Part shown: piece after piece, positions 12,434-40,177 of the stretch | Numbering within the stretch: position 1 is the first letter of the stretch | How the letters are laid out: every line of letters starts with the position of its first letter | From: Armatimonadota bacterium | GTDB taxonomy: Bacteria > Armatimonadota > Hebobacteria > CAIYQO01 | Assembly (NCBI GenBank): GCA_029553475.1 | Contig: JAKPKV010000073.1 | Span: 1 to 40,282, forward strand | Direction: 5' to 3' | DNA: 40,282 bases | The notes under the pieces: model-generated | What the model was told of the DNA's origin: nothing | Databases searched by the model: none | The model's input: the letters and a program-made list of their open reading frames with translations, nothing else | Made by a program: the position numbers and the translations under genes

Positions 12434-12596
12434 GTTGGCAACGCGCGCGGATCGGGAGAGATTCCGGGCGCGGACGACCAGATTTGATGCGGCGCATTTG
12501 CGAGAAAAAAGTTTTCGGCATCCGGGAACAATCGTCGCCCCCGCGCGGTCCAATCCACAAACGAGTGAATATTTCCTGTGAAAGGGATGGGTGACT

Positions 12597-15500: not shown

Positions 15501-18500
15501 ATGCTGCAGCCGGTGGAGCGTGAGGTGCAGCGCTGGCCGCTCGACACGAACGCCGAGGGCACCGCGCGCCTGCAGATGAAGGCCGACCGCGCCGGGCAGT
15601 ATCGCGTCAGTTATAAGCTCACCGACGAGCAGAAGCACGAGATCGAAGGCGGCTACGTCTTCTACGTGCGCGGCGACGGCGTGGACGGCAGCCAGTTCCG
15701 CTTCAACGATCTGGAGCTGCTCACCGACAAGCGGGCGTACCGGCCCGGCGAAAATATCAGCCTGCTCGTCAACACGAACCATGACGATGCCACCGTGCTC
15801 CTCTTCGTGCGCCCGGCCAACGGCGTCTACCTGCCGCCGAAGGTGCTGCGCCTGAACGGGAAGACGGCCTTCGAGCAGATCGCCGTGCTGAAGAAGGACA
15901 TGCCGAACTTCTTCATCGAGGCGCTCACCGTCGCCGGCGGCAAGGTCTTCACCGAAATCCGCGAGGTGATGGTGCCGCCCGAGCAGCGCGTGCTCACCGT
16001 GCAGGTGCAGCCCACCGCCTCCACCCTGCAGCCCGGGAAGGACAACCCCGTGCGCGTGAAGGTGACCGACGCCGACGGGAAGCCGTATCAGGGCACGCTG
16101 GCGGTCAGCGTTTACGACAAAGCGGTGGAATATATCTCCGGCGGCAGCAACGTGCCGGAGATCAAGTCCTTCTTCTGGAAGTGGCAGCGCCACCATAGCC
16201 CGCAGACCGAGCACAGCCTGAATCGCGGCGGCGGCAATATCCTGCTGCGCAATGAACGCGGCATGGGCTTCCTCGGCATCTTCGGCTACTCCATCGCCGA
16301 CGAAGATCTGCGCGACGACGTGGGCCTGGAATCCGCCGCCGCATACGGAGACATCTCCGGGGTGAGAACGCTGGGCGCCCGCACCGCCGGCGCGCTGGCG
16401 GTGGATGGCATAGCGCCGGCGGCGCCGATGGCGGCGAAGGCGATGGAGGCTAACGGCCTGATGGCCGATCGTTCGGCAGGTGACGCGGCCGGCGGCGGGG
16501 GCGAGCCCCCGCTGGCGGCGGCCACCGTGCGCACGAACTTCGCCGACACCGCCTACTGGGCGGCGACGGTGCGGACGGACGCCAACGGCCTCGCCACGCT
16601 GCCGGTGAAGATGCCCGACAGCCTGACCACCTGGAAAGCGCGGGTGTGGGCGATGGGCGATGGCGCGCGGGTCGGCGAGGGCACCGCCGAGATCATCACC
16701 CGGAAGAACATCATGGTGCGCCTGCAAGCGCCGCGCTTCTTCATGCAGAAGGACGAAGTGGTGCTCTCCGCCGTGGTGCATAACTACCTGCCGGCGGCCA
16801 AAGCCGTGCGGGTGGCGCTGGAGCTGGACGGCGCGGTGCTGGAGCCGATCAATCCCGCCGCCGAGCCGCTGACGCGCACAGCGATGATCCCCGCCGGCGG
16901 CGAGGCGCGCGTGGACTGGCGCGTCCGCGTGGTGGCCTCCAACTTCGCCACCGTGCGGGTGAAGGCGCTCACCGACCAGGAATCGGACGCCATGCAGATG
17001 GTCTTCCCGGCCTACGTGCACGGCATGCTGAAGACGGACAGCTACAGCGGCGCCATCCGCCCCGACGGCACGGAGAGCACGGTGACGCTGCGCGTGCCGG
17101 CCGAGCGCCTGCCGCAGTACAGCCGCCTGGAAGTGCGCTACTCGCCCTCGCTGGCGACTTCGATGGTGGACGCGCTGCCCTATCTGGTCAGCTATCCCTA
17201 TGACAATACGGAATCCACGCTGAACCGCTTCCTGCCCACCATCATCACGCAGAAGGTGCTGCAGAAGATGGGCGTGGACCTGAAGGATATCCAGGCCAAG
17301 CGCACCAACCTGAACGCGCAAGAGATCGGCGACGACCGCCAGCGCGCGCAGGACTGGAAGCGCATCTACCAGCCGTGGGAGGGTACGCGCAACCCGGTGT
17401 TCGACGACGCCGAGGTGGCGCGGATGATCCAGCATAACCTGAACCGGCTGCAGAGCATGCAGTGCGGCGACGGCGGCTGGGGCTGGTTCAGCGGCTGGGG
17501 CGAGCGCTCCTGGCCGCACACCACCGCGCTGGTGGTGCACGGCCTGCAGATCGCCCGCGAGATCGGCGTGACGGTGCCGCCGGAGATGATCCGGCGCGGC
17601 GTCGCCTGGCTGCAGGGCTACCAGGCCGAGCAGATCAACTGGCTGCGGCGCGGCGACGCGGAGAAGTCGGAATGGCCGTACAAGAAGACGGCCGATGCGC
17701 TGGACGCCTTCGTCTACATGGTGCTCGTGGATGAAAAGGCCGACAGCGCCGTCATGCGCGGCTACCTGTGGCGCGACAGGGTGAGCCTGCCCGTCTACGC
17801 GAAGAGCATGTTCGCCATGGCGCTGCACCGGGTGGGGGACGTCGAGAAGCGCGACGCCGTCATCACCAACATCGAGCAGTTCCTCGTGCAGGATGACGAG
17901 AACCAGACCGCCTACCTGCGCCTGCCGGAGAATAGCTGGTGGTACTGGTACGGCAGCGAGTACGAGGCGCAGGCCTACTATCTGAAGCTGCTGGCGCTCA
18001 CCAACCCGAAGAGTGAGACGGCATCGCGGCTGGCAAAATACCTCATCAACAACCGCAAGCATTCCACCTACTGGAACAGCACGCGGGACACCGCCATCGT
18101 GGTGGAGGCGCTGGCCGACTACATCAAAGCCAGCGGTGAGGACAGCCCGAATATGACGGTGGAGGTGAAGCTGGACGGCAAGACGGTGAAAACGGTGCGC
18201 ATTGACAAGGCCAATCTCTTCACCTTCGATAATAAGCTGATCCTCGACGGGCCGGCGGTGACGACCGGCCAGCACACCCTCACCGTGGTGAAGAAGGGGA
18301 CGGGGCCGCTCTACTTCAACGCCTACCTGACGAACTTCACCACGGAAGACGTGATCACGAGGGCGGGGCTGGAGATCAAGGTCAACCGCAAGTACTATAA
18401 GCTGACGCGGGTGGAGAAGACGACGAAGGTGGCCGGCACCCGCGGCCAGTCGCTTGACCAGCGCGTGGAGAAGTACGAGCGCACCGAGCTGCCGAACCTG

Positions 18501-18842
18501 GCCGCCGTGAAGAGCGGCGACCTCATCGAGGTGGAGCTGGTCATTGACGCGAAGAACGACTACGAGTACATCCTGCTGGCCGATATGAAGGCGGCGGGGT
18601 TTGAGCCGGTGGAAGCCCGCAGCGGGTACGGCGGCAACGAAATGGGCGCGTACACGGAGTATCGCGACAACCGCGTCTGCTTCTTCGTGCAGCGCCTCGC
18701 CCGCGGCACGCATAGCCTCAGTTATCGCCTGCGCGCCGAGACCCCCGGCAAATTCAGCGCCTTGCCCACCACCGCGACGGGCATCTACGCGCCGGAGCTG
18801 CGCGCGAACTCGGACGAGCTGAAGCTGCAGATCACGGATTGA
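12597..18842 (+). CDS. Very large alpha-2-macroglobulin family protein, thioester lost
   Basis: 2081 residues, signal peptide (KHLRVVLFTVFALALLLV then MQAVNGQA). Residues ~30-400 are helical and TPR-like (DGNWKDAYERLAPLAL, YENRRQFDRAVEYWRRLAD). Macroglobulin-type beta domains follow with the hallmark ITDRPVYRPEQTVKFKFWV near 630, a second at ~1045 (LLTDKRAYRPGENISLLVN), and the A2M region YWAATVRTDANGLATLPVKM-PDSLTTWK near 1320. The alpha-helical thioester domain has YPYDNTES at 1534-1540 where active members have YPYxCTEQ, so Cys is Asn1537 and Gln is Ser1540. No covalent protease trapping is expected. A Trp/Tyr-rich insert lies at ~806-851. ATG 12597 follows AAAGGG by 10 nt. No pbpC (penicillin-binding protein 1C) neighbour, which often accompanies bacterial A2M, is present. 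Likely periplasmic or surface protein. Confidence 0.9.
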   Translation: MKHLRVVLFTVFALALLLVGRMQAVNGQAPDPKQRETGHQLMRDGNWKDAYERLAPLALNPRDDPARVGDDLTSAIQCLYNLGRANEVDAFREKVIAAHGGNWRLLYAAAESYINGQHYGFMIAGNFERGSHRGGGKWVNAAERDRVRALQLMEQALKQITPGDNRAAVGHFCWSFAQMLLGNRGWSEAWRLQDLTDLSTLPDYDEGGYYGGGRGAPVDENGDPILYAVPDSWADAHNDGERWRWMLKMVEMNQPERQAEVQMHFANFLQAQFGVETLSQYRWFGRGADDGKPGRYAVETLTDDETMARLATGPRRFTLPDEFNYLALYKQVADGNSAFKNQAISTVASHYENRRQFDRAVEYWRRLADKQHARDRIAQITGNWGVFEPVVTQPAGKGATVDFRFRNGNKVHLEARAINVQAVLADVKAYLKTNPRQLDRRNIDLGNLGYRIITENQTKYVGETVAAWDAPLTPRPGHFDRRVTLATPLKTAGAYLLTGTMLDGNTSRIIIWVADTAIVKKGMSNQLFYYVADAVTGKPIPNAALDFFGYQQKWVNENNGRGYSTVAVQSYQKTTDANGQLLLPGSEQDRQYQWVVTATGGGRLAYLGYTGAWYQPYQDATYENMKVFVITDRPVYRPEQTVKFKFWVNQAKYDLEGKSPFAGQPFTVRINNPMGEKVYEKTLTADEFGGFDGEFAPGADAKLGVYSIATSNPAAPANGAKPVRGGAIIADAPVEIAPGVRISGGGSFRVEEYKKPEFEVKVHAPTEPVALGEPVVASIEAKYLFGAPVTNAKVKYKILRTGYTESWYPADRWDWLYRPGYWWYGYDYTWYPGFRDWGCLRPVPIWWGWRGQPQPELVAEAEAPVRADGTVPVTIDTALVKELLGDTDHRYEITAEVTDSSRRTIVGTGSVIVARKPFTVYAWVDRGHYRVGDPIQASFNAHTLSGVPVKGRGVVRLLQVSYTADASGMLQPVEREVQRWPLDTNAEGTARLQMKADRAGQYRVSYKLTDEQKHEIEGGYVFYVRGDGVDGSQFRFNDLELLTDKRAYRPGENISLLVNTNHDDATVLLFVRPANGVYLPPKVLRLNGKTAFEQIAVLKKDMPNFFIEALTVAGGKVFTEIREVMVPPEQRVLTVQVQPTASTLQPGKDNPVRVKVTDADGKPYQGTLAVSVYDKAVEYISGGSNVPEIKSFFWKWQRHHSPQTEHSLNRGGGNILLRNERGMGFLGIFGYSIADEDLRDDVGLESAAAYGDISGVRTLGARTAGALAVDGIAPAAPMAAKAMEANGLMADRSAGDAAGGGGEPPLAAATVRTNFADTAYWAATVRTDANGLATLPVKMPDSLTTWKARVWAMGDGARVGEGTAEIITRKNIMVRLQAPRFFMQKDEVVLSAVVHNYLPAAKAVRVALELDGAVLEPINPAAEPLTRTAMIPAGGEARVDWRVRVVASNFATVRVKALTDQESDAMQMVFPAYVHGMLKTDSYSGAIRPDGTESTVTLRVPAERLPQYSRLEVRYSPSLATSMVDALPYLVSYPYDNTESTLNRFLPTIITQKVLQKMGVDLKDIQAKRTNLNAQEIGDDRQRAQDWKRIYQPWEGTRNPVFDDAEVARMIQHNLNRLQSMQCGDGGWGWFSGWGERSWPHTTALVVHGLQIAREIGVTVPPEMIRRGVAWLQGYQAEQINWLRRGDAEKSEWPYKKTADALDAFVYMVLVDEKADSAVMRGYLWRDRVSLPVYAKSMFAMALHRVGDVEKRDAVITNIEQFLVQDDENQTAYLRLPENSWWYWYGSEYEAQAYYLKLLALTNPKSETASRLAKYLINNRKHSTYWNSTRDTAIVVEALADYIKASGEDSPNMTVEVKLDGKTVKTVRIDKANLFTFDNKLILDGPAVTTGQHTLTVVKKGTGPLYFNAYLTNFTTEDVITRAGLEIKVNRKYYKLTRVEKTTKVAGTRGQSLDQRVEKYERTELPNLAAVKSGDLIEVELVIDAKNDYEYILLADMKAAGFEPVEARSGYGGNEMGAYTEYRDNRVCFFVQRLARGTHSLSYRLRAETPGKFSALPTTATGIYAPELRANSDELKLQITD

Positions 18843-26934: not shown

Positions 26935-27214
26935 GCGACAGGTTGAGGGTAGTTCCTGGTTCCTCGTTCCTGGTTGGAGCGGGTTGAGATGACCGGTCGG
27001 ACCGCCGGCTTCCAGCCGGACACCGGTCATCGCGACCGTCCCGGTCACGTGCCGGCAGAATGCCGGCGGTCCGACCGCCGGCCGGCGCAGCGGGGATAAA
27101 AAACGCGGCGCGCGCGACTGGAGTGATTTATGCTACAATAGGGCAGAAGAGGCATCGGCCGTATACGGGCACGGCATCCCCGAGTCCCGGGCAGCGCACA
27201 GGAGATGATCAGTC
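26935..27214. other. Intergenic region with 16-bp inverted repeat and weak plus-strand promoter
   Basis: 26944-26987 consists of repeated TTCCTGGTT-like words. 26994-27009 and 27062-27077 are exact 16-bp reverse complements (CGGTCGGACCGCCGGC) with further short GCCGG dyads inside. On the plus strand TGCTACAAT (27131-27139) is an extended -10 candidate for the PAS-GGDEF gene; no clear -35. No gene. Confidence 0.55.
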
Positions 27215-28147
27215 ATGCGTATTCTGGGCACATCGTATCTGCATTTGCTTGACAGCCTGCATGACGGCGTATACGTCGTGAATCGCGACCGCCGGATTCG
27301 GTTCTGGAACTCCAGCGCAGAGCAAATCACCGGGTATCCGGCCGCGGAGGTGGTGAACCGGCGCTGTTCCGAGAACATCCTCATGCACGTGGATAAAGAC
27401 GGGCGCCCGCTGTGCAAGGATCACTGCCCGCTGCGCGCGACGCTGCAGGATGGGCAGAAACGCGAGATGGAGGCGTATCTGCACCACGCGGACGGACACC
27501 GCATTCCCGTGCTGGTGCGGGTCGCGCCGTTATTTAACGCGAAGAAGCAGATCGTGGGCGTCATCGAAAGTTTTAACGAGAGCACGCTACGCGCCGACCT
27601 CATCGAGCGCCTGCATCAACTGGAGGCGCTGGCGCTGCTGGATGAGTTGACGCAGGTCGGCAATCGCCGCTATGCCAACATCACCCTCAGCACGCGCATG
27701 CATGAATTCACCCGCTACGGCATTCCGTTCGGCGTGATGATGGTAGACGTGGATACCTTCAAAGAGTTCAACGACACGTACGGGCACGATATCGGGGATA
27801 TGGTGATCCGCATGGTGGCGCGTACCATGCAGGACGCGCTGCGCACCAGCGACGTGCTCTGCCGCTGGGGCGGCGACGAGTTCCTCATTATCGTGCCGAA
27901 CGCGAGCGAGGAGCAGTTGCAGCGCCTGGGCGACCGCTTGCGCGGCCTCATCTCCACCTCGTTCCTCACCCAGTCCCAGGGGATCCTCAAAGTGACGGTC
28001 TCCGCCGGCGCGACGATGGCAGTACTCGATGACTCGGCGGAGACGCTGCTGAAACGCGCCGACATGCTGCTCTACCGCGCCAAAGACGGCGGGCGGAATC
28101 GCGTCATCGTCGAGCTGGCCACGGCCGCGGCGGGACGGGACGCATGA
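27215..28147 (+). CDS. PAS-GGDEF diguanylate cyclase
   Basis: 310 residues, no membrane helix, so a soluble sensor-enzyme making cyclic di-GMP. PAS domain at ~8-122 with an unusual cysteine/histidine set: Cys51, His58, Cys67 and Cys71 in RRCSENILMHVD and LCKDHCPL. GGDEF domain at ~140-300: DELTQVGNRRYA, active site WGGDEF (219-223), and the product-inhibition I-site RTSD (210-213) exactly five residues before it. The catalytic motif is intact. ATG 27215 follows GGAG by 10 nt. Its stop overlaps the next ATG (ATGA), coupling it to the glycosidase-like genes. Confidence 0.93.
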   Translation: MRILGTSYLHLLDSLHDGVYVVNRDRRIRFWNSSAEQITGYPAAEVVNRRCSENILMHVDKDGRPLCKDHCPLRATLQDGQKREMEAYLHHADGHRIPVLVRVAPLFNAKKQIVGVIESFNESTLRADLIERLHQLEALALLDELTQVGNRRYANITLSTRMHEFTRYGIPFGVMMVDVDTFKEFNDTYGHDIGDMVIRMVARTMQDALRTSDVLCRWGGDEFLIIVPNASEEQLQRLGDRLRGLISTSFLTQSQGILKVTVSAGATMAVLDDSAETLLKRADMLLYRAKDGGRNRVIVELATAAAGRDA

Positions 28148-29904
28148 CGATTCCCCTGCGCATCTTCCGCTCATGTCGCGCGAATTTTTACGCGAATGAC
28201 ATCCGATGCGCTCCGGAACATTACGCTGACGCCTACTTTGACGCGCTGACCGCGCATGGCTTCAACGCCGTCTGGCTGCGCGGCCTGCTGCGCGACCTGG
28301 CGACCACCGACGTCTTCCCCGAGCTGGGCGAGGAGGTGGCCGCCCAGCAGGATGCGCTGGGGCTCGTGGTCGAGCGCGCCGCCGCGCACGGCGTGCGCGT
28401 GCTGCTGTATCTCCAGGAGCCGCAGGCGCTGCCCGCGGCGCACCCGTTCTGGACGCATCACCCGGAGGCGCGCGGGCATACCGCGCCCTTCGCGGATTAC
28501 GCGGCCGAGCCGCTCACCGCCTTTTGCACCTCCGAGGCCGCGGTGCGCGCCTGGCTGCGCGCGGCGATGACCGGCCTTTTCCGCGCCGTGCCGGGACTCG
28601 GCGGCTGGTTTGCCATCACCGCCAGCGAATACCCCGCCCACTGTTACTCCCGCATCCTCGGCTACCGGCGGGGCGAGCGGACGACCTGCCCGCGCTGCCG
28701 CGCGCGGCAGCCGATGGCCATCGTGCGCGAGGTGCTGGAAGACCTGCATCAGGGCACCCGCGCCGCCAGCCCCGACGCCCTCACCATCGCCTGGAACTGG
28801 AGCTGGGCCTATTACGAGGCGGACCCGCAGCCCTCGCTGCTGCCCTATCTGCCCGCCGACATGGCGGTCATGCTCGATTGGGAACGCGGCGGCCATCACG
28901 CGCTGCCGAATGGCAAACCCTACTTCGTGGATGAATACAGCCTGGCCTACCCCGGCCCGTCCGCGCGCTGCATGGCGCTGTATGACGCCGCGCGCCGGCG
29001 CGGATTGCCGGTGATGGTGAAGCTGCAGGTCGGCACTACCCACGAGCTGGCGACGGTGCCGAACCTGCCGGTGGTGGATACCCTGTATCGCAAGCTGCTC
29101 GACGCGGAGCGCTTGGGCGTCGCCGGTCTGCTCGCCACCTGGAATTTCGGCAACACCTTCTCGCTGAACACCGCCGCCGTCGCGCGGTTCGCCGACACGG
29201 TCGCGCGTCCGGCGCCGGCGACATTCGTCGCGCGGTTGGCCGAAAGCTATTTCGGGATTGCCGATGGCGGCGGCGTTGCGGCGGCGCTGGAAACATTTTC
29301 CGCGGCGCTGGTGTGGTTCCCGTCCGATCAGGACCTGCTGTACTTCTGGCCGGGCAATTACGCGCCGGCCTATCCGCTCACCCTCGCCCCGCTCACCGGC
29401 GCGCCCATGGGGTGGAGCTGCCTCGCCCAGGAGCGCGGCGACGATCTCTCCGCCACGGAAACGCAGTTCACCGCCGAAGAGATCGTGGACTGTCTGGACA
29501 ACCTGCTCGTCGCCTGGGACGAGGGCGTGGCCCTGCTGGACGCCGCCCTCGCCGGCGCGTCGAGCGCGACGGCGCGCCTGGAGCGCGGCGTCGCGCACGC
29601 CATCGGGCATATTTTTCGCAGCGCACGGCATATTTACCAAATCTACCTGCTGCGCCGCGACCGCCCGCCGGACAGGGAAGCCCGCTACCGCGCCATCCTC
29701 GACGCCGAGATCGCCAACCTCACCGCCCTCCTCCCTTTCGTGGAGGCCGACCCCCGTCTCGGTTTCCACGCGGAATGCCAGCAATATCTGTTCACGCCGG
29801 AGAGCATCCGGGCGAAGCTCACGGATCTGCGGGACCAGCTCCACCCGCTCATTTCTCGTGAAATCCCGCGGCATCCGGCAGGGAAATCGCCAGACCCGGC
29901 GTAA
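28144..29904 (+). CDS. putative TIM-barrel glycosidase-like protein, paralogue 1
   Basis: 586 residues, no signal peptide, so cytosolic. The alternating pattern HGFNAVWLRG, GVRVLLYLQEP, GGWFAITASE, LTIAWNWSWAYYE, AVMLDWERGG, FVDEYS, GLLATWNFGN suggests a (beta/alpha)8 barrel with acidic residues at strand ends: Glu162, Asp245/Glu247 and Asp263/Glu264 are candidate catalytic residues. A Cys pair (CPRC, 182-185) follows Cys167. A helical C-terminal domain ends with EADPRLGFHAECQ, seen in some carbohydrate-active proteins. Family assignment uncertain (GH20/GH163-like barrels are comparisons only). Four-base overlap with the diguanylate cyclase. Roughly half its residues match the next gene by eye. 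Confidence 0.6.
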   Translation: MTIPLRIFRSCRANFYANDIRCAPEHYADAYFDALTAHGFNAVWLRGLLRDLATTDVFPELGEEVAAQQDALGLVVERAAAHGVRVLLYLQEPQALPAAHPFWTHHPEARGHTAPFADYAAEPLTAFCTSEAAVRAWLRAAMTGLFRAVPGLGGWFAITASEYPAHCYSRILGYRRGERTTCPRCRARQPMAIVREVLEDLHQGTRAASPDALTIAWNWSWAYYEADPQPSLLPYLPADMAVMLDWERGGHHALPNGKPYFVDEYSLAYPGPSARCMALYDAARRRGLPVMVKLQVGTTHELATVPNLPVVDTLYRKLLDAERLGVAGLLATWNFGNTFSLNTAAVARFADTVARPAPATFVARLAESYFGIADGGGVAAALETFSAALVWFPSDQDLLYFWPGNYAPAYPLTLAPLTGAPMGWSCLAQERGDDLSATETQFTAEEIVDCLDNLLVAWDEGVALLDAALAGASSATARLERGVAHAIGHIFRSARHIYQIYLLRRDRPPDREARYRAILDAEIANLTALLPFVEADPRLGFHAECQQYLFTPESIRAKLTDLRDQLHPLISREIPRHPAGKSPDPA

Positions 29905-29914
29905 TTGTCTACCC

Positions 29915-31624
29915 ATGCCTGGCATCCCATTGCGCATCTTTCGCTCGTTTCACGCGAAATATTATGCGGATGACATCCTGACCGGTCCGGACGCCTATCC
30001 GGAAGCGTATTTCGCGCAGTTGGTGGAGCACGGCTTCAACGCCGTGTGGCTGCGCGGCATCCTGCGCGATCTGGCGGCGACGGACATCTTCCCGACGCTC
30101 GGCACGGACATCGCCGCCCATCAGGACGCGCTGGCGACGGTGGTGGAACGGGCGAAGCGCTATGGCGTACGGGTGCTGCTCTATCTCAATGAGCCGCTCT
30201 GCCTGCCGCGCGATCATCCCTTCTGGCTTGCCCATCCGGAAGCGCGCGGCGCCGCCGGCCAGTCCGGCATGGACGAGTGGCCGGAGACCTACGCCTTTTG
30301 CACCTCCGCGCCGGAAGTGCAGGCGTGGCTGCGCCAGGCGGCGGCGAACGTGTTCACCGCCGTGCCCGATCTCGGTGGGTGGTTTCTCATCAGCGCCAGC
30401 GAGCACCACACCAGTTGCTATTCGCACGTCTGGGATGTCCCCGGCGGGCAGCGGCCCGCCTGCCCGCGCTGCGCCGGGCGCGCAGCGTCCGACGTGGTGG
30501 CGGAGCTCATCACTGCGCTGCGCGACGGCACCCGCGCCGCCAGCGCCGACGCCCTCGCCATCGCCTGGAACTGGGGCTGGACGCAGTATGAGCCGGACCC
30601 GCAGCCCGCGCTGGTCGCGCAACTGCCGAAGGATGTCATCGTGCTCATTGACTGGGAGCGCGGCGGGCATCGCACGCTGCCCACCGGCCAGGAGAACTTC
30701 GTTGACGAGTATAGTCTCGGATACGTCGGCCCGTCGGAACGCTTCCGTCATCTGCATGACGAGGCCAGACGCCACGGATTATCGGTGATGGCCAAGCTGC
30801 AGGTGGGCACCACCCATGAGCTCGCCACCGTGCCGAATCTGCCGCTGATAGATCACCTGTACGCGAAACTACGCGGCGTGGAGGAACTCGGCCTGCGGGG
30901 CATGCTCGCGACCTGGAATTTCGGCAACAGCTTCAGCCTCAACACCGCGGCGGTGGGGCGCTTCATCGCGCGGCCGGAGCGCCCGACGCCCGCGGAGTTC
31001 GTCGCCCGGCTGGCGGAGGAATACCTCGGGGTGGCTGATGGCGCGGGCGTGGCGGACGCGGTCGCGCACTTCTCCGCCGCCTTTGCCTGGTTCCCCTTCG
31101 ATATGTCGCTGCTCTACTGGTGGCCGGGCAACTACGCGCTGGCGTATCCGCTGACGCTGGAGCCGCTGACCGGCGCCTCTATGGGCTGGACGTGGATGAT
31201 GCATGAGCGCGGCGACGACCTCACGCAATCCGCGGTACAATTCACCCTCCCGGAGATCGTCGAGCTGCTCACCGGCCTCGTCGCCGAGTGGGACAACGGG
31301 TTGGCGCGGTATCGCGAGGCGCTGGCCGGCAGTGCGCGGCCCACCGCGCAGCTCGAGCTGGGGACGGTGACGGTCATCGGCTGCGCGTATCGCAGCACGC
31401 TGCATATTTATAAAACGTACCTGCTGCGCCGCGACCGGCCGGAAGATCGGGTCGCGCAGTACCGGGCGATTCTCGACGATGAGATCGCCAACCTCACGCT
31501 GGCGCTGCCGTGGATCGAGGCCGACCCCCGCCTGGGCTTCCATGCCGAATGCCAGGGGTGGATGTTCTCCGCGGAAAGCGTCCGTGAAAAACTCGCGTCA
31601 CTGCGAGTACAGAAAGAGGAATGA
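29915..31624 (+). CDS. putative TIM-barrel glycosidase-like protein, paralogue 2
   Basis: 569 residues, aligned end to end with paralogue 1 apart from the latter's longer C-terminus. Shared blocks include HGFNAVWLRG, QVGTTHELATVPNLP, ATWNFGN, FSLNTAAV, WPGNYA, YPLTL, ERGDDL and RAILD-EIANLT. The same acidic positions (SASE, DWERGG, VDEYS) and CPRC pair are kept, so both copies look functional. ATG 29915 lies 10 bp after the previous stop and lacks a ribosome site, implying coupled translation. Product specificity unknown; a tandem duplication with divergence is the simplest origin. Confidence 0.62.
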   Translation: MPGIPLRIFRSFHAKYYADDILTGPDAYPEAYFAQLVEHGFNAVWLRGILRDLAATDIFPTLGTDIAAHQDALATVVERAKRYGVRVLLYLNEPLCLPRDHPFWLAHPEARGAAGQSGMDEWPETYAFCTSAPEVQAWLRQAAANVFTAVPDLGGWFLISASEHHTSCYSHVWDVPGGQRPACPRCAGRAASDVVAELITALRDGTRAASADALAIAWNWGWTQYEPDPQPALVAQLPKDVIVLIDWERGGHRTLPTGQENFVDEYSLGYVGPSERFRHLHDEARRHGLSVMAKLQVGTTHELATVPNLPLIDHLYAKLRGVEELGLRGMLATWNFGNSFSLNTAAVGRFIARPERPTPAEFVARLAEEYLGVADGAGVADAVAHFSAAFAWFPFDMSLLYWWPGNYALAYPLTLEPLTGASMGWTWMMHERGDDLTQSAVQFTLPEIVELLTGLVAEWDNGLARYREALAGSARPTAQLELGTVTVIGCAYRSTLHIYKTYLLRRDRPEDRVAQYRAILDDEIANLTLALPWIEADPRLGFHAECQGWMFSAESVREKLASLRVQKEE

Positions 31625-31631
31625 AAGAACC

Positions 31632-31742
31632 CGTTCGTAGTCAGGCACGCAGCCGCAGCGGAGTGCCGTTCGACCATGCAATCGGTTACAGGAACCAGAA
31701 TCGGACGGCACTCCGCTGCGGCTGCGTGCCTGACTACGAACG
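31632..31742. repeat. 38-bp perfect inverted repeat between genes
   Basis: 31632-31669 and 31705-31742 are exact reverse complements (arm begins CGTTCGTAGTCAGGCACGCA), with a 35-nt spacer. It begins 8 bp after the paralogue 2 stop and ends 34 bp before the M24 gene. It may terminate or process the upstream message, or be a mobile palindrome; no U-run follows. Confidence 0.8.
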
Positions 31743-31776
31743 AGCTTGAGCGAAAAGCATTATAAGGAGACACCGC

Positions 31777-32970
31777 ATGACTCTCGTTATTGACTCTCGC
31801 ACCGGGCTGAAGCGTCTACCCGACAGTGAATTTTCCGCGCGCCTGGCGCGCACGCGGCAGGCCGTGCGCGACGCCGGGCTGGACGCCATCCTCGTGCACA
31901 GCAACGAGGCGGACTTCGCCAACGTGCGCTACCTGACCGACTACTGGCCGCTTTTTGAGTCCGCCGGCTGCATCGTGCCGGCCGACGGCGAGGCGATCCT
32001 GCTCATCGGCCCGGAGAGCAAGGAGTATGCCGAAGACCACAGCATGCTGCCGACGATCCGCACGATGATCGCCTACCGCGAATCCGCCGAGCCGGACTAC
32101 CCGGAACTCTCCGTGAGCACCTTCGGCGATGTCTTCGACGAAGCGCTGGGCGGCAGGCCGCTGCACACGCTGGGGCTGGTGGGCTACAGCATCATGCCGC
32201 TGCCGGTCTACGACGGCGTGCGCGCCGCCTTCCCCGGCGTGGAACTGGTGAAAGCGGATGAGATCATCATCAAGCAGCGCGTCATCAAGAGCCCGGCGGA
32301 GCTGGAGGTGATGCGGGAAGCCTTCCGCATGAGCGAACACGCGCTGGAGGCGGTGGTGTCGCACATCCGCGCCGGCATGACGGAGCTGGAGCTCGTCGGC
32401 CTCATCCAGAAGGAGCTGTACGCCGCCGGCGCCGAGTACGAGGCGCATGCCGTCTACGCCTTCGCCGGCCCGCGCACCCGCCACGCCATCTCGCGCCCGA
32501 CGCACAGCCCCATCATGCCCGGCACGATGATTCAGCTCAACCTGGGCGCGCGGCTGGCGGGGTACTCGCCCAGTGTCGGCCGGCCGCTCTGCATCGGCCC
32601 CATGCCCGCCGAGATGCGCGCGCTGGTCGAGGTGGGCCGCGACGCCCACTACCAGACGATGGCGTGGATGCGGGCCGGCGTCATCGCCAGCGACGTGGTG
32701 AGCCGCTTCTACGACTACATCCGCAGCCGCGGCTTCGGCGACCACCTCCTCTACGGCCCCTGCCACGGCCTGGGGATGATGGAGGTGGAGCGCCCGTGGA
32801 TGGAGAGCACCACCCATTATCCGCTGGAAGAGAACATGACCTTCCAGGTGGATACTTTTCTGCAGACGCCGGCGTTCGGCCTGCGCTGGGAGAACGGCGT
32901 GCGCGTGGCCGCCGATGGCGTGGAGACGCTCTCCGACGCGCTGATGGATATCATGGAGCTGCCGTTATGA
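31777..32970 (+). CDS. M24-fold (pita-bread) protein lacking metal ligands, Xaa-Pro dipeptidase/creatinase-like
   Basis: 397 residues: creatinase N-terminal domain (~18-155) and M24 domain (~175-390). The five metal positions of M24 aminopeptidases read Asn255 (in QLNLGA), Ser266 (in GYSPSVGR), His330 (in GPCHGLG), Asp359 (in FQVDTF) and Glu372 (in RWENGV), so both aspartate ligands are lost and one Glu is Asp. The central His is kept, as in metal-free creatinase. It is therefore more likely a C-N hydrolase of a small compound, or a binding protein, than a dipeptidase. ATG 31777 follows AAGGAG. Overlaps the ASRT gene by 4 bp. Confidence 0.82.
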   Translation: MTLVIDSRTGLKRLPDSEFSARLARTRQAVRDAGLDAILVHSNEADFANVRYLTDYWPLFESAGCIVPADGEAILLIGPESKEYAEDHSMLPTIRTMIAYRESAEPDYPELSVSTFGDVFDEALGGRPLHTLGLVGYSIMPLPVYDGVRAAFPGVELVKADEIIIKQRVIKSPAELEVMREAFRMSEHALEAVVSHIRAGMTELELVGLIQKELYAAGAEYEAHAVYAFAGPRTRHAISRPTHSPIMPGTMIQLNLGARLAGYSPSVGRPLCIGPMPAEMRALVEVGRDAHYQTMAWMRAGVIASDVVSRFYDYIRSRGFGDHLLYGPCHGLGMMEVERPWMESTTHYPLEENMTFQVDTFLQTPAFGLRWENGVRVAADGVETLSDALMDIMELPL

Positions 32971-33329
32971 TGGGCCACACCCGTTGGGCGTTTCCCGATG
33001 GCGACCTCCCTCCCCGCGGGGAGGGGGAGCCCCACGGCCACGAGTCGCTGGTCATCCTCAACCCGAACGGCGTGGAAGCGGCGTGCCGGCTGACGATGTA
33101 CTTCACCGATCGCGAGCCGGTGCGCGACCTGACCTTCACCGTCGGCGCCGAGCGCGTCCGCTGCCTCCGCATGGATGAGCCCGTCGGCGACCAGGGCTTC
33201 ATGGTGCCCTTCGGCCAGTATGCGCTCGTGCTGGAAAGCACCGTCCCCGTGGTCGCGCAGATCGGCCGCATGGATGTGCAGCAGCCGAACCTGGCGTATT
33301 ATACGGTGATGGGATTCCCGGTCGCATAA
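32967..33329 (+). CDS. ASRT-like (sensory rhodopsin transducer family) small-molecule-binding protein
   Basis: 120 residues, one beta-sandwich domain. Family pattern: RWAFPDGDLPP near the start, HESLVILNPN, CRLTMYFTDREPV, and VESTVPVVAQIGRMD-type block (LESTVPVVAQIGRMDVQQ) at the end. Named from the Anabaena sensory rhodopsin transducer, but most bacteria with this family lack rhodopsin, and no rhodopsin gene is in this window; sugar or small-molecule binding has been proposed for the family. Its start overlaps the M24 stop (ATGATG; 32967 or 32970), so the two are made together and may share a ligand. Confidence 0.75.
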   Translation: MMGHTRWAFPDGDLPPRGEGEPHGHESLVILNPNGVEAACRLTMYFTDREPVRDLTFTVGAERVRCLRMDEPVGDQGFMVPFGQYALVLESTVPVVAQIGRMDVQQPNLAYYTVMGFPVA

Positions 33330-33399
33330 TCGTCGTCGCAGTCGTAGTCGTAGCCGTAGTCGTAATCGAAAGGTTTCTGATTCACGACTACGACTACGG
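33330..33399. repeat. TCGTAG-word repeat forming a hairpin
   Basis: Starts right after the ASRT stop as TCGTCGTCGCAGTCGTAG followed by variants (CCGTAG, TCGTAA). 33354-33368 pairs with 33385-33399 with one mismatch. It could end the M24-ASRT transcript. 33400-33522 is otherwise featureless leader to the deacetylase gene. Confidence 0.55.
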
Positions 33400-33522
33400 T
33401 TGCTCACGAACGCATCTATTCCAGGGAGGGTATTGTCCTTGTATGATGATAGTTGGGTAGAGAGTCGAGCCGGGCTCCCGCCCCGTTCCAGACGGTGACT
33501 ATACATAACAACAGGAGCTGTC

Positions 33523-34413
33523 ATGCGCGTCATCTTCGGTTTCGATATGGAGACGGATATCGGCAGTTGGACGCCATTCTACGAAGGGCTGCAACACGGC
33601 ACGCCGCGGTTGCTGCACCTGATGGCGGACAAGGGCATCGTCTCGACCTGCTTTTTCGTGGGGGATGCCGCGCGGCGCTATCCGGAGATCGTGCGCGACG
33701 CCGCCGCCGCCGGGCACGAGGTGGGTGCGCACGCGCTGTATCACGAAACGGTGGGGGAGCCGCTTTTCGAGATTCCCGGCATTTACCCGCTGCTGCCCGC
33801 CGAAGTGGAGCCGCGGCTGGCGCTGACCACCGACCTCGTCGAGCAGGCGCTGGGCGAGAAGGTGGTCTCCTTCCGCGCCCCGCGCCTCTTCGGCGGCACG
33901 CACGTGGTGAATGCCCTCGCGCGCCTGGGCTACCTCGCCGACGCCTCCTACCCGATGTATTTTTACCGGGAGCGCCTGGCGCCGTACCATCCCAGCACGG
34001 ACGATTGGACGCGGGAAGGCGACAGCCCGGTGCTGGAAATCCCCAATTTCGCCGACATGACCATCGAGAGCGCCGACCCCTACGGCCGCGACCGCGACCA
34101 GTGGCCGAAATGGCGCACGGAGAGCGCCGAAGCTCTGATGCGCCACATTGACAACTTCCTCGCCTACCTGCGGGCGCGCGAAATCCCGCCCACGCTCTGC
34201 TTCTACTTCCACCCCTGGGAATTCTGGCCCATGCCCACCGGCGCCATCCACTACGGCGAAGGCGCCGTCATCCCCGACCAGTTCATGGTGGAGGGGTGCG
34301 GCGACTACGCGCTGGAGCAGCTCGGGGTGTTGATTGACCTGCTGAAGGAGCGGGGGGCGACCTTCACCACGTGCAAGGCGCTGGCGGCAGGCTGGGGAGT
34401 GAGTCAAGCGTGA
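33523..34413 (+). CDS. polysaccharide deacetylase (NodB-homology) protein
   Basis: 296 residues, no signal peptide. NodB motifs: catalytic/metal Asp8 with FDMETD, His70 and His74 in GAHALYH as metal ligands, FRAPRLFG (motif with the Arg), and CFYFHPWEFWP near 220 with the final His. This is the short-chain CE4 type with an HPWE motif seen in peptidoglycan- or exopolysaccharide-linked deacetylases. Removes acetyl from N-acetyl sugars, cytosolic substrate unknown. ATG 33523 follows CAGGAG by 7 nt. Last plus-strand gene of the carbohydrate-type cluster. Confidence 0.88.
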   Translation: MRVIFGFDMETDIGSWTPFYEGLQHGTPRLLHLMADKGIVSTCFFVGDAARRYPEIVRDAAAAGHEVGAHALYHETVGEPLFEIPGIYPLLPAEVEPRLALTTDLVEQALGEKVVSFRAPRLFGGTHVVNALARLGYLADASYPMYFYRERLAPYHPSTDDWTREGDSPVLEIPNFADMTIESADPYGRDRDQWPKWRTESAEALMRHIDNFLAYLRAREIPPTLCFYFHPWEFWPMPTGAIHYGEGAVIPDQFMVEGCGDYALEQLGVLIDLLKERGATFTTCKALAAGWGVSQA

Positions 34414-34684: not shown

Positions 34685-36205
34685 TCACCGCGGCGCGTCG
34701 GTGCGGAAGGGCACCGCTGGCAGCCCCGCTTGGTTATACAGGTTGCACTCCGGATTGTTCGCGAAGGCGTAGCGCACGGCGACGGGGCTGCGCACCGCCG
34801 GGCTGTTGACGACCACGGTATCCCCCTCGATCACCGCGTCCGCCCAGGCGAATTTCTTGTCTTCGCCGCAGATGACGAAGCCCTTGAGCTTGTCGCCGCG
34901 CACCGTCAGCCCGCCGCCGAGGTTGGCGAACCTGATGCGGACCGTCGCGCCTTCCAGCGTCATGCCGGCGTAAGTGGGGCCGGAAGAGACCACGTCCTGG
35001 CCGTAGGTCTTCGCTAGCGCGTTCAGCGCCAGCCGCTTGCCCACGTCCTGCTTGTTCTTCGGGTGGATGTCGCCCGCTTCGCCGATGTCAATGATCGTCG
35101 CCATGCCGGTGTTGGGCAGCGCCAGCGCCATCGCCTGTGCCTCGCGCAGCTCCGCCCAGCCGCTCTGCTCGCCGGGGTCTTTCTGCGCGGCCAGGTGATT
35201 CGCCAACTGCACGAAATAGAAGGGGAAATCGCCCTGCCCCCAGGCTTTCCGCCAGTCGGCGATCATCGCGGGGAAGAGCGTGCGGTATTGCGCGGCGCGC
35301 CCGGCATTCGATTCTCCCTGGTACCAGATCGCCCCGGCGATGCGATAGGGGATGAGCGGCGCCAGCATGCCGTTGTACAGCGCGCAGGGGAAATTCTGGT
35401 TCGCGCGCGGGTCGGGCAGCGCGTGCAGCGGCATGGGCGGCATGGGCTTCCCGTCGGCGGTCGCCCGCTCCGCCGCCGCCAGCCACTGTTGCAGCGCGGC
35501 GCCGTATTGCGCGTAGATTACGCGGCTGTAGCGCTCGGTCGCGGTATCCGCCGCGCTGATGATGCCCGCCAGCTCCGGTGAGGCCGCCAGCGCCTCGCGG
35601 CTGGTCCACGCCTCCGCGATGGTGCCGCCCCACGAGGTGTGGATCATGCCGATGGGCACCTGCAGTTTCTCGTGCAGCGCTCGCGCGTAAAAATAGCCCA
35701 CCGCGGAGAACGCGCCGGCCGCTTGCGGCGTGCAGACCGCCCAGCGGCCGGCGCACTCGGCGCGGGGCACATCCGCGACCTGCTTCGCGACGGTGAACAT
35801 GCGCATTTGCGGATACGCCGCCGCGGCCATTTCCTGCTGGGCGTTGGCCGCCCGGTTGACCGTCCATTCCATGTTCGACTGCCCGGAGCAGACCCACACC
35901 TCGCCGATGAGCACGTCTTTGATGGTGAGCGTATTTTTACCGGCCACCGTCATCGCGAAGGGACCGCCTGCTTTCATCGGCTTCAGGGTCGTCTTCCAGG
36001 CGCCCGCGGCATCGGTGGTCGCCGTCACCTGTTGCTGGTCAAGCGTGATGGTGACCGCTTCACCCGGCGCCGCCCAGCCCCAGACCGGCACGGGGGCATT
36101 CCGCTGCAGCACCATACCGTCGCTGAAGAGGGTGGGCAGCCGCACCTCCGCCAGCACGGCGGAACAACACGTGAGCGCCAGCAGCGTCCAGGCATACACG
36201 CGCAT
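34685..36205 (-). CDS. sialate O-acetylesterase-like SGNH hydrolase, secreted
   Basis: 506 residues with signal peptide (VYAWTLLALTCCSAVLA; a Cys-Cys pair makes a lipoprotein unlikely but not excluded). An N-terminal beta domain (LPTLFSDGMVLQRNAPVPVWG) precedes the SGNH domain: GQSNMEW with Ser110, GMIHTSWGG, AIWYQGESNAG (oxyanion Asn/Gly region), and DIHPKNKQDVGKRLA with Asp and His of the triad. Removes O-acetyl groups from sialic acids or plant sugars. ATG 36205 has GGAGG 8 nt upstream. Convergent with the deacetylase gene; divergent from the riboswitch operon. Confidence 0.9.
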   Translation of the reverse strand: MRVYAWTLLALTCCSAVLAEVRLPTLFSDGMVLQRNAPVPVWGWAAPGEAVTITLDQQQVTATTDAAGAWKTTLKPMKAGGPFAMTVAGKNTLTIKDVLIGEVWVCSGQSNMEWTVNRAANAQQEMAAAAYPQMRMFTVAKQVADVPRAECAGRWAVCTPQAAGAFSAVGYFYARALHEKLQVPIGMIHTSWGGTIAEAWTSREALAASPELAGIISAADTATERYSRVIYAQYGAALQQWLAAAERATADGKPMPPMPLHALPDPRANQNFPCALYNGMLAPLIPYRIAGAIWYQGESNAGRAAQYRTLFPAMIADWRKAWGQGDFPFYFVQLANHLAAQKDPGEQSGWAELREAQAMALALPNTGMATIIDIGEAGDIHPKNKQDVGKRLALNALAKTYGQDVVSSGPTYAGMTLEGATVRIRFANLGGGLTVRGDKLKGFVICGEDKKFAWADAVIEGDTVVVNSPAVRSPVAVRYAFANNPECNLYNQAGLPAVPFRTDAPR

Positions 36206-36370
36206 GAAAAACCTCCGGACGGTGAGATATGCCTCTCTTCGCGCCCGCGCGCGCAAATTCCTTCCACGAACGCCTCCCGCATGGGGAAGGTCTGCGCGGC
36301 GCGATCCTACGCGTAGCGCATGACGTGTGATTCGACGCTAGATAGCGCGGCAAAATTATCGTAACCCCCC

Positions 36371-37248: not shown

Positions 37249-39132
37249 ATGTTCACTGTCCCCCGGCTATGCGCGCTTTTCGCCGTGCTCGCCCTGTCCT
37301 CCCTGCCCATGCTGGCGCAGGATGTCGGGGAGGAAGAACCGGAAGTGACCGTCGTGGTCACCGCCGACCGGATCGAAGGCCCGCAGAGCGAATCCATCGC
37401 GACGGCCACCGTCATCACCGGCGAGGAGATGCGGCGGCAGGGCGCGGAGACTGTCGCCGACGCGCTGAAGCTGGTGCCCGGCGTCGCGATCAAGCAAAAC
37501 GGGCAATTCGGCGCCCTCGCCGTGCCCGCCATCCGCGGCACCTCCGGCAACCAGACGCTGGTGCTGGTGGACGGCATGCGCGTCTCCAACTCGTCCTTCA
37601 TGGGCGGCGCCGATCTGTCGAAATTCCCCGTCGAAGAGATCGAGCGCGTGGAGATCATCCGCGGGCCGGCCTCCAGCCTGTACGGCTCGGAAGCCATCGG
37701 CGGCGTCATCAACGTCATCACCAGGCGGCCGGAGGGCTCCGGCGGCAGCAGCATGATCGGCTATGGCAGCAAGGGGCGCCGGACGCGCAACCTGTCGCTG
37801 TACGGCGCGCTGCCGCAGATGGCCTGGCAGCTCACCTCCAGCCTGCCGGAATACGACGGCACGCGCCCGAACAGCGACTTCAGCGCGACGAATCTCGCCG
37901 GCCGGCTGGATTTCCCCGCGGTGGCCGGCTGGCGGATGACGCTGCGCGCCGAGCATTACCGCGATGACCTGGGCCTCCCCGGCGCCGACACGGGCAACAC
38001 CGGGTTCGCCGACCTCGACGACCGCCAGGAGTGGGACCGCAATGAGTATGATCTCTCCGCCAGCCGCGAGCTGGGCGGCGGCGAGCTCGCCTGGCGCGCC
38101 TATCTGGTGCGGCAGGTGCTGGACAACCTCTCCCCCGGCACGGACTGGATGACCGGCAATCCGGCGGTCTTCCGCTCGCTCGTGACCGGCAAGACGAAAG
38201 TCGGGGAGATGACCTACAGCGGCCGTTACGGCGCACACCGCGCGCTGATCGGGCTTGAATACCGGGCGGAAAGCTATGAGAACGCGGAGACGCAGGACGG
38301 CGCGGCCACCAGCAGCCAGGACCAGGACGTGACGACGCGCGCGCTGTTTGCCCAGGACCGCTGGCGCCTGACCCCGGCCACCGACCTGGTGCTCGGGCTG
38401 CGCTTTGACGATCACTCCGTCGCCGGCAGCCGGCTGGCGCCGCGCGTGGGCGTCAACACCGCCGTGCGTCCCGACCTCAACCTGCGCGCCTCCTACGGCG
38501 AGGGGTTCCGCTCGCCGGCGCTGGTGGAGATGTACTACAATGCCATGGGCTTCACCGGCAATCCGAACCTGCGGCCGGAAGTCTCGCAGCAGTACGAGGT
38601 GGGGCTGAACTGGCAGGGTGCGCGGAGCAGCGTGGACCTGGCGCTCTTCCGCAACAGCGTGTATAACGAGATTCAGTGGGCGGGCATCACCTTCAATAAC
38701 GTGGCCCGCACGCGCCACCGGGGCGTGGAGCTGGCATGGACGCGCAAGCTGGCGGGCAAGACCGCCCTTAGCGCGACCTACAGTTATCTGGATTCGGCGA
38801 ACCGCGACAGCGGCGCGCGCCTGCTGCGCCTGCCGCATAACCAGGCGACGCTGACCCTGAGCACGCAGTTCCGCGAATACGGCTGCGCGCTCACCGGGCG
38901 CTGGGGCGATGAGCGGCTGGATATCGTCGGCTTCGATCCGGTGACGTTCGCCGCGATCACCGGCACGCTGCCCGCACGTACGGTTTTTGATTTGTCCGTC
39001 ACCCGCACCGTCGGGGCCGTGCAGCCCTACCTGACGGTGCGCAACCTGTTGGACAAGGCGTATCAGGAACTCGCCGGGTATCCCGCCGAAGGCCGCAGCC
39101 TGGAGGTGGGCGTCCGGTCGGCGTGGAAATAA
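37249..39132 (+). CDS. btuB: TonB-dependent outer-membrane receptor, BtuB-like (cobalamin)
   Basis: 627 residues with signal peptide (LCALFAVLALSSLPMLA). TonB box-like VTVVVTA at ~33-39. Plug domain: ATVITGEEMRRQGAETVADALKLVPGV, LVLVDGMRV, VERVEIIRGPASSLYGSEAIGGVINVIT. A 22-strand-type beta-barrel fills the rest, with the C-terminal strand ending in aromatic residues (VGVRSAWK). Short loops and length (~600) fit the BtuB class; the upstream riboswitch makes vitamin B12 the probable substrate. A strong AAAGGAGG lies 9 nt before ATG 37249. Shows that the host has an outer membrane. Confidence 0.93.
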   Translation: MFTVPRLCALFAVLALSSLPMLAQDVGEEEPEVTVVVTADRIEGPQSESIATATVITGEEMRRQGAETVADALKLVPGVAIKQNGQFGALAVPAIRGTSGNQTLVLVDGMRVSNSSFMGGADLSKFPVEEIERVEIIRGPASSLYGSEAIGGVINVITRRPEGSGGSSMIGYGSKGRRTRNLSLYGALPQMAWQLTSSLPEYDGTRPNSDFSATNLAGRLDFPAVAGWRMTLRAEHYRDDLGLPGADTGNTGFADLDDRQEWDRNEYDLSASRELGGGELAWRAYLVRQVLDNLSPGTDWMTGNPAVFRSLVTGKTKVGEMTYSGRYGAHRALIGLEYRAESYENAETQDGAATSSQDQDVTTRALFAQDRWRLTPATDLVLGLRFDDHSVAGSRLAPRVGVNTAVRPDLNLRASYGEGFRSPALVEMYYNAMGFTGNPNLRPEVSQQYEVGLNWQGARSSVDLALFRNSVYNEIQWAGITFNNVARTRHRGVELAWTRKLAGKTALSATYSYLDSANRDSGARLLRLPHNQATLTLSTQFREYGCALTGRWGDERLDIVGFDPVTFAAITGTLPARTVFDLSVTRTVGAVQPYLTVRNLLDKAYQELAGYPAEGRSLEVGVRSAWK

Positions 39133-39141
39133 CAAGAGCAA

Positions 39142-39183
39142 CGGGGCCGGGCGGCGTCATGCCCGGCCCCGCGAGGATTTTTT
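39142..39183 (+). terminator. rho-independent terminator after btuB
   Basis: 11-bp stem CGGGGCCGGGC (39142-39152) with 39161-39171, then a T-run (39177-39183). It ends only 7 bp before the exbB ATG, so it lies within the exbB leader. Confidence 0.8.
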
Positions 39184-39189
39184 CGCATC

Positions 39190-39759
39190 ATGCCCATACA
39201 CCATTTGCTGCACGATCCGGTGATACTAGTCCTGCTGGCGGCGTCGCTGGGGTCGTGGGGCATCATCATTGATCGCCTGCTGGCGCTGGGGCGCTGCCGC
39301 GGCGCCGACCGCGCGTTTCAGCAGGGGCGCGCGTCATCCGGGGTGCTGGCGCACCTGGCGCGGCTGCGCGACGAGCACGCCGCCGGCGGGCGCGAGCACC
39401 TGGCGACGCTGATGGATACCGCCATCACCGTGGCGCGGCACCGGCTGGAAGGCTGGCTGCCGGTGCTGGGCGTCATCGGCAACACGGCGGCCTACGTGGG
39501 CCTGCTCGGCACGGTCATCGGCATCATTCACGCCTTCCAGGCGATGAAGGTGCAGAACACCATGAGCACGGAGGTGGTGGCGTCCGGCATCGCCACCGCG
39601 CTGGTGGCGACGGCCTGCGGGCTGGGGGTGGCGATTCCGGCGGTGGCCGGGCACCACCTGCTCTCCGCCGCCATCAATCGCCGGGTGGCGGAGTGGGAAG
39701 ACACCGCCGCGCAGTGGCTGCCGAAGGAGGAAGCTGATGAGCCTGTCGCGCGGGCGTAG
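39190..39759 (+). CDS. exbB: ExbB/MotA/TolQ proton-channel protein
   Basis: 189 residues with three membrane helices: ILVLLAASLGSWGIIIDRLLAL, then LGVIGNTAAYVGLLGTVIGIIHAF and ATALVATACGLGVAIPAVAG, the ExbB/TolQ signature (GLLGTVxGIIxAF). Forms the pentameric inner-membrane motor that energises TonB. The start at 39190 has no good ribosome site (GAGG 14 nt away), so expression may depend on read-through of the preceding terminator or on another start. Overlaps exbD by 23 bp. Confidence 0.92.
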   Translation: MPIHHLLHDPVILVLLAASLGSWGIIIDRLLALGRCRGADRAFQQGRASSGVLAHLARLRDEHAAGGREHLATLMDTAITVARHRLEGWLPVLGVIGNTAAYVGLLGTVIGIIHAFQAMKVQNTMSTEVVASGIATALVATACGLGVAIPAVAGHHLLSAAINRRVAEWEDTAAQWLPKEEADEPVARA

Positions 39760-40177
39760 GCATGAGCTGCATCCGAAGGTGGAGATCAATATCATCCCGC
39801 TGGTGGACGTGATGCTGGTGCTGCTCATCATCGTCATGCTCACCGCGAGTTTTGAAAAAACCGCCGGCCTCAGTGTAAAACTGCCCACCTCGGCGGTGAC
39901 GCGGTCGCAAGGGGCGGTCGCGCACGATATCGTCATCGGCATTGATCGCCGTGGGGGATATTTTTGGGCCGGCCGGCCGGTGCCCGACGCCGCGCTGAAC
40001 GCGCTGCTCGCGCATGAGCGCGCGCAGTACGGTACCGAGGGCCGGGTGATCGTACAGGCGGATGCCCGCGCGGCGCACGGGCGCGTGGTGGGGGTGATGA
40101 CGCTGGCGCAGCAGGCCGGTTTTGGGAAGCTGGTGGTGGCGACGCAGGGGACGCCGCGGGGGACGCATGGCCGGTAA
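39737..40177 (+). CDS. exbD: ExbD/TolR-type protein
   Basis: 146 residues: one N-terminal helix with the essential Asp in the family motif INIIPLVDVMLVLLIIVML, then the periplasmic ExbD fold (AHDIVIGIDRRGGYFWAG, VIVQADARAAHGRVVGVMTLAQQAGF). Works with ExbB. ATG 39737 follows AAGGAGGAAGCT. Overlaps tonB by 11 bp. Confidence 0.94.
   Translation: MSLSRGRRHELHPKVEINIIPLVDVMLVLLIIVMLTASFEKTAGLSVKLPTSAVTRSQGAVAHDIVIGIDRRGGYFWAGRPVPDAALNALLAHERAQYGTEGRVIVQADARAAHGRVVGVMTLAQQAGFGKLVVATQGTPRGTHGR

Follow-up and report, generated by a model that had tools for sequence, protein, structure and literature searches.

A conserved gene module in Armatimonadota

The genes for an M24/creatinase-fold protein, a CE4-type deacetylase, an ASRT-like protein and a glycosidase-like protein (GHL) form a real, deeply conserved module of the Armatimonadota, and the c-di-GMP gene that stands in front of them in the window is most likely incidental. 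The window is the whole 40,282-nucleotide stretch of DNA analysed here, contig JAKPKV010000073.1 of a 5.27-Mb Armatimonadota genome, on which the gene calls were checked.

We surveyed 291 Armatimonadota genomes and counted genes as linked when they lay within 8 kb on one strand. GHL relatives were found in 65 genomes and ASRT proteins in 35, while 33 genomes have an orthologue of CE4 and 32 a close orthologue of M24. Both M24 and CE4 are present in 30 genomes, and in 27 of these the two genes are linked, across 15 families and with a median gap of 103 bp, while linkage was found for CE4 and ASRT in 17 of 25 genomes, for CE4 and GHL in 20 of 29, for M24 and ASRT in 15 of 26 and for M24 and GHL in 17 of 28; most of these genomes are drafts, and some absent links may be contig ends. 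The commonest order is M24>CE4>ASRT>GHL, with GHL>M24>CE4, CE4>M24 and GHL>CE4>M24 found elsewhere and GHL>GHL>M24>ASRT>CE4 in the window genus; ASRT and GHL are absent from some M24-CE4 loci. That linkage is kept despite such rearranged orders argues for a functional tie among the module genes. Co-occurrence with M24 over the 291 genomes points the same way (Fisher p=4e-35 for CE4, 6e-24 for ASRT and 5e-17 for GHL), even though these values overstate independence because the genomes are related. The pairwise identities of M24 and CE4 are also correlated (rho 0.72, Mantel p 0.001).

The original prediction had treated ASRT, M24, CE4 and a pair of proteins of about 570 residues as one group and had proposed to look for the same neighbourhood in other genomes. 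Such a neighbourhood exists, and the linkage of the four gene types holds phylum-wide. When GHL-B, one of the two GHL proteins of the window, was used to scan genome contigs, the sister-species contig was the sole match. Plasmid searches returned no close homologue of M24 (28% identity at most) or of CE4, and the plasmid ASRT matches were at most 39% identical among the matches listed. A GHL6/GH42M-type protein recurs beside the module in 15 loci, and PIG-L deacetylases, alpha-L-fucosidases and an MFS transporter are among the other recurrent neighbours; neither a sugar transporter nor a kinase accompanies the module constantly. Searches of the open-licence literature yielded no paper on the M24/CE4/ASRT/GHL set, a module of which we found no description anywhere.

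Gene organization in the window

The six plus-strand genes that had been predicted are all present, in the order proposed and with the domains that Pfam assigns to them. The first (27215-28147) encodes a 310 aa protein with PAS and GGDEF domains (4e-43) and lies outside the conserved module. It is followed by GHL-A (28144-29904, 586 aa) and its paralogue GHL-B (29915-31624, 569 aa), neither of which has a family at threshold in Pfam or NCBIfam, then by the M24/creatinase-fold gene (31777-32970, 397 aa; M24 3e-28, Creatinase_N 7e-13), the ASRT-like gene (32967-33329, 120 aa; ASRT 5e-30) and the CE4-type deacetylase gene (33523-34413, 296 aa; polysaccharide deacetylase 5e-15). Convergent with the cluster, a SASA-domain acetylesterase gene occupies 34685-36256 on the minus strand; it adjoins the cluster in the sister species too, and its membership is uncertain. 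The contig of that species, L007 ('Armatimonadetes bacterium UR.bin144', same genus), carries PAS-GGDEF, GHL, GHL, M24, ASRT, CE4 and the convergent SASA esterase in this order. An additional ORF (L007:8621-9466) lies there between the cluster and the esterase.

The ATGA overlaps between GGDEF and GHL-A and between M24 and ASRT, as well as the spacing of 10 bp from GHL-A to GHL-B, are all found where they had been described, and L007 also keeps the GGDEF/GHL-A overlap. An ATGA overlap is by itself weak evidence of coupling because, of 210 pairs of neighbouring genes on the same strand at the loci examined, 24 could start in this way. No obvious signal peptide was seen on any product of the window, and on that account the module products are probably cytosolic.

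Elsewhere in the window, the plus-strand gene at 12591-18842 encodes a bacterial protein of alpha-2-macroglobulin type, 2083 aa long (MG2, bait region, A2M, TED and bMG10); the 2281-aa ORF that runs opposite matches no family and is unlikely to be a real gene. A BtuB/haem-type TonB-dependent receptor gene, a MotA/TolQ/ExbB-family gene and a small ORF follow one another at 37249-40177 on the plus strand.

The PAS-GGDEF gene

The original prediction saw the diguanylate cyclase as a possible part of the system, with a functional link to the glycosidase/ASRT cluster that might serve, for instance, to control an amino- or acetyl-sugar matrix polymer. The protein does have the features of such an enzyme, with an intact RWGGDEF motif and an RxxD I-site upstream of it, and the retention of its overlap with GHL-A in the sister species is in favour of a c-di-GMP switch. 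However, that kind of overlap is open to many adjacent gene pairs, as noted above, and no PAS-GGDEF relative occurs in any of the M24/CE4/ASRT/GHL neighbourhoods that we fetched from outside the window genus; the gene stands beside the module in the two genomes of this genus only. Relatives at E <= 1e-55 were found in seven genomes, among them the genome of the window itself, which has a second copy, and the relatives outside the window genus have no module gene within flanks of 1.5 kb, some of which are cut by contig ends. The juxtaposition appears to be genus-specific, and on this phyletic ground the GGDEF gene was rejected as a member of the module. Its co-expression with the cluster is possible in the window genus, while a functional c-di-GMP switch seems to us very unlikely.

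Inverted repeats

Both inverted repeats that had been reported in the cluster exist. The one in the gap between GHL-B and M24 (31632-31742) is a palindrome with arms of 42 nt (31632-31673/31701-31742, 98% identity), and the one near 33354, in the gap between ASRT and CE4 (33338-33403), is imperfect and weaker, with arms of 15-20 nt. The suggestion that the first might split the transcript fared less well: the palindrome has 76 matches in the genome with both strands counted, that is about 40 places, it is absent from the syntenic gap of L007, and a search of this repeat for terminator-like sites on the plus strand found none, so that an operon-specific terminator was rejected. Different palindromes occupy both of the compared gaps in L007, and the intergenic palindromes look like dispersed repeats. 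A palindromic repeat is also present in the intergenic gap at 26994-27077.

Proteins of the module

GHL-A and GHL-B are 61% identical to each other. An N-terminal GH20b-type domain, for which PDB profile searches returned beta-hexosaminidases, is present in 16 of the 23 aligned GHL sequences and is missing from both copies in the window, while E163, E248 and E302 are invariant in all 23. The predicted model of GHL-B (mean pLDDT 62.6, a moderate value) resembles GH138 (E 1e-10) and then GH67 (E 2e-7), with GH115 and GH84 lower, the best matches being 9-14% identical. GH67M matches GHL-B weakly (E 0.018) around E163, and no significant match at threshold was obtained to the catalytic domains of GH20, GH67 or GH138. 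On the strength of the model, GHL would be an unclassified TIM-barrel protein that resembles GH138 and GH67.

The ASRT-like proteins linked to the cluster form a clade of 20 rows with 99/99 support. W7, H25, E26 and N32 are at least 95% conserved in 18 sequences, so that the Trp, the Asn and the HE of the signature are present. The Cys of the SHEshChhN ligand signature is missing from the cluster-linked proteins, which have a GHESL[IV]xLN-type motif instead, whereas most unlinked ASRTs of the phylum retain it. De Souza et al. (PMC2739507) tied the signature Cys and His to ligand contact. With this Cys lost, the ligand of the cluster-linked ASRTs may differ. A second ASRT of the window's genome, at L038:995-1369 (G000:C193:1004-1360), scores highest against Pfam within the phylum; it resembles the Anabaena protein (VGPYPLTV..RRT) and is encoded directly behind an oxidoreductase-like ORF, and no rhodopsin was noticed in the 2.9 kb examined.

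The ligand positions of the M24 protein were set by alignment to 2zsg, and conservation was scored in 31 sequences. The canonical dinuclear-site ligands D, D, H, E and E are not all kept, as the first two are replaced by N255 (N in 26 sequences, D in 4, S in 1) and S266, followed by H330, D359 and E372, the last four positions being invariant in all 31. The protein had been called a metal-site-less M24, a description that suits the dinuclear site, where two of five ligands are lost, but not the remaining three positions, which keep a potential ligand. H41, E44, E61, H224, H236, R240, Q253, E336, E338, E343, Q357 and R370 are invariant polar residues in the same 31 sequences. Near-invariance of this kind argues that the pocket is selected and not decayed, and a decaying pseudo-enzyme was ruled out on this ground.

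In 30 CE4 orthologues D8, E10, H70, H74, R118, P120 and H230 are invariant; we take these to be the catalytic Asp, the metal-binding D/E and H-H, the RxP motif and the downstream His. As judged from these residues, the metal and catalytic positions of the window protein are intact and the enzyme is probably active. Its best NCBIfam match, below cut-off, is the XrtA-system polysaccharide deacetylase (4e-14), followed by the NodB and PgdA families. The module could then modify a polymer of the cell's own, with CE4 acting like the deacetylases of peptidoglycan or exopolysaccharide. We find such an envelope or exopolysaccharide role unlikely, as the window products have no evident signal peptide and the recurrent neighbours that we scanned are mostly hydrolases, with no glycosyltransferase, flippase or XrtA gene among them.

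A non-sugar substrate must also be weighed, because M24 and CE4 are the tightest and widest pair of the module. Below the NCBIfam cut-off, ectoine hydrolase models match the M24 protein, whose metal site is altered, and CE4 has a weak match to the allantoinase PuuE; M24 could be likened to creatinase or ectoine hydrolase and CE4 to PuuE, the pair turning over a compound of N-acyl, hydantoin or guanidino type, while ASRT and GHL would have joined them to deal with this compound in a glycosylated form. However, CE4 fits sugar deacetylase models better than PuuE, and GHL together with the GHL6/GH42M and PIG-L neighbours points to sugars, which makes a substrate of this kind rather improbable.

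Proposed function

We consider it moderately probable that the four gene types form one cytosolic catabolic module for an acetylated oligosaccharide, possibly one containing uronic acids or amino sugars, with ASRT as a metabolite-binding regulator. Sugar-type enzymes beside the module elsewhere and the downstream SASA esterase in the window point to acetylated glycans. The modelled resemblance of GHL to GH67, GH115 and GH138 suggests uronic acids, and the GH20b domain and PIG-L neighbours suggest amino sugars; we make no choice between the two. In such a pathway the acetylated oligosaccharide would be imported and then deacetylated by CE4 in the cytosol, GHL would remove a terminal sugar (a uronic acid or an amino sugar), and the M24-fold protein would act on this substrate or product as creatinase does, by hydrolysing a C-N bond, or a related one, that is not a peptide bond. 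ASRT would bind a metabolite of the pathway and tune the enzymes through direct contact. In the window genus, the GHL gene was duplicated, its products lack the N-terminal domain seen in relatives, and the pair stands behind an unrelated PAS-GGDEF gene.

More tentatively, the module may be an undescribed catabolic pathway found throughout the phylum. CE4 and an M24 protein with a rebuilt active site would work there, together with a glycoside hydrolase of a new family, on a glycan or glycoconjugate that carries acetyl groups, and an ASRT subfamily whose ligand pocket has changed would control the pathway by direct allostery. Creatinase works without metal on the M24 fold, and no sugar pathway known to us requires an enzyme of this fold. 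The cluster may hold a new activity on the M24 fold as well as the new hydrolase family. Since the Armatimonadota are mostly uncultured and little is known of their sugar metabolism, a cluster spanning 15 families offers one testable shared function for four proteins, and it is a tractable place for testing ASRT-like proteins as soluble sugar sensors that contact enzymes.

Comparison with known systems

The M24 protein resembles creatinase and prolidase in having Creatinase_N plus M24 domains and in overall length, and it differs from them in the replacement of two dinuclear-site ligands by N255 and S266 and in the set of pocket residues that are invariant. CE4 keeps the catalytic and metal residues of the polysaccharide deacetylases, but it and its orthologues, about 60% identical, make up a group of their own in the Armatimonadota. 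GH138 (BP0997) and the GH67/GH115 uronidases are the nearest solved folds to the GHL-B model, although at 9-14% identity, with no significant family match and with the N-terminal domain missing from the window copies.

ASRT-like proteins have been proposed as sugar-binding regulators by De Souza, Iyer and Aravind (2009, PMC2739507). The ASRT/ASRAH sugar-metabolism operons outlined there are similar to the present module in that a stand-alone cytosolic ASRT-like protein, a proposed metabolite sensor acting via protein contact, lies beside sugar-type enzymes. However, the neighbourhoods given in that paper are of isomerase/aldolase/kinase, ABC transporter, amylase and pyruvate decarboxylase types, the text consulted names no M24/CE4/GHL set, and the window ASRT is without the pocket Cys. 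The module adds a variant to the known ASRT-containing sugar operons.
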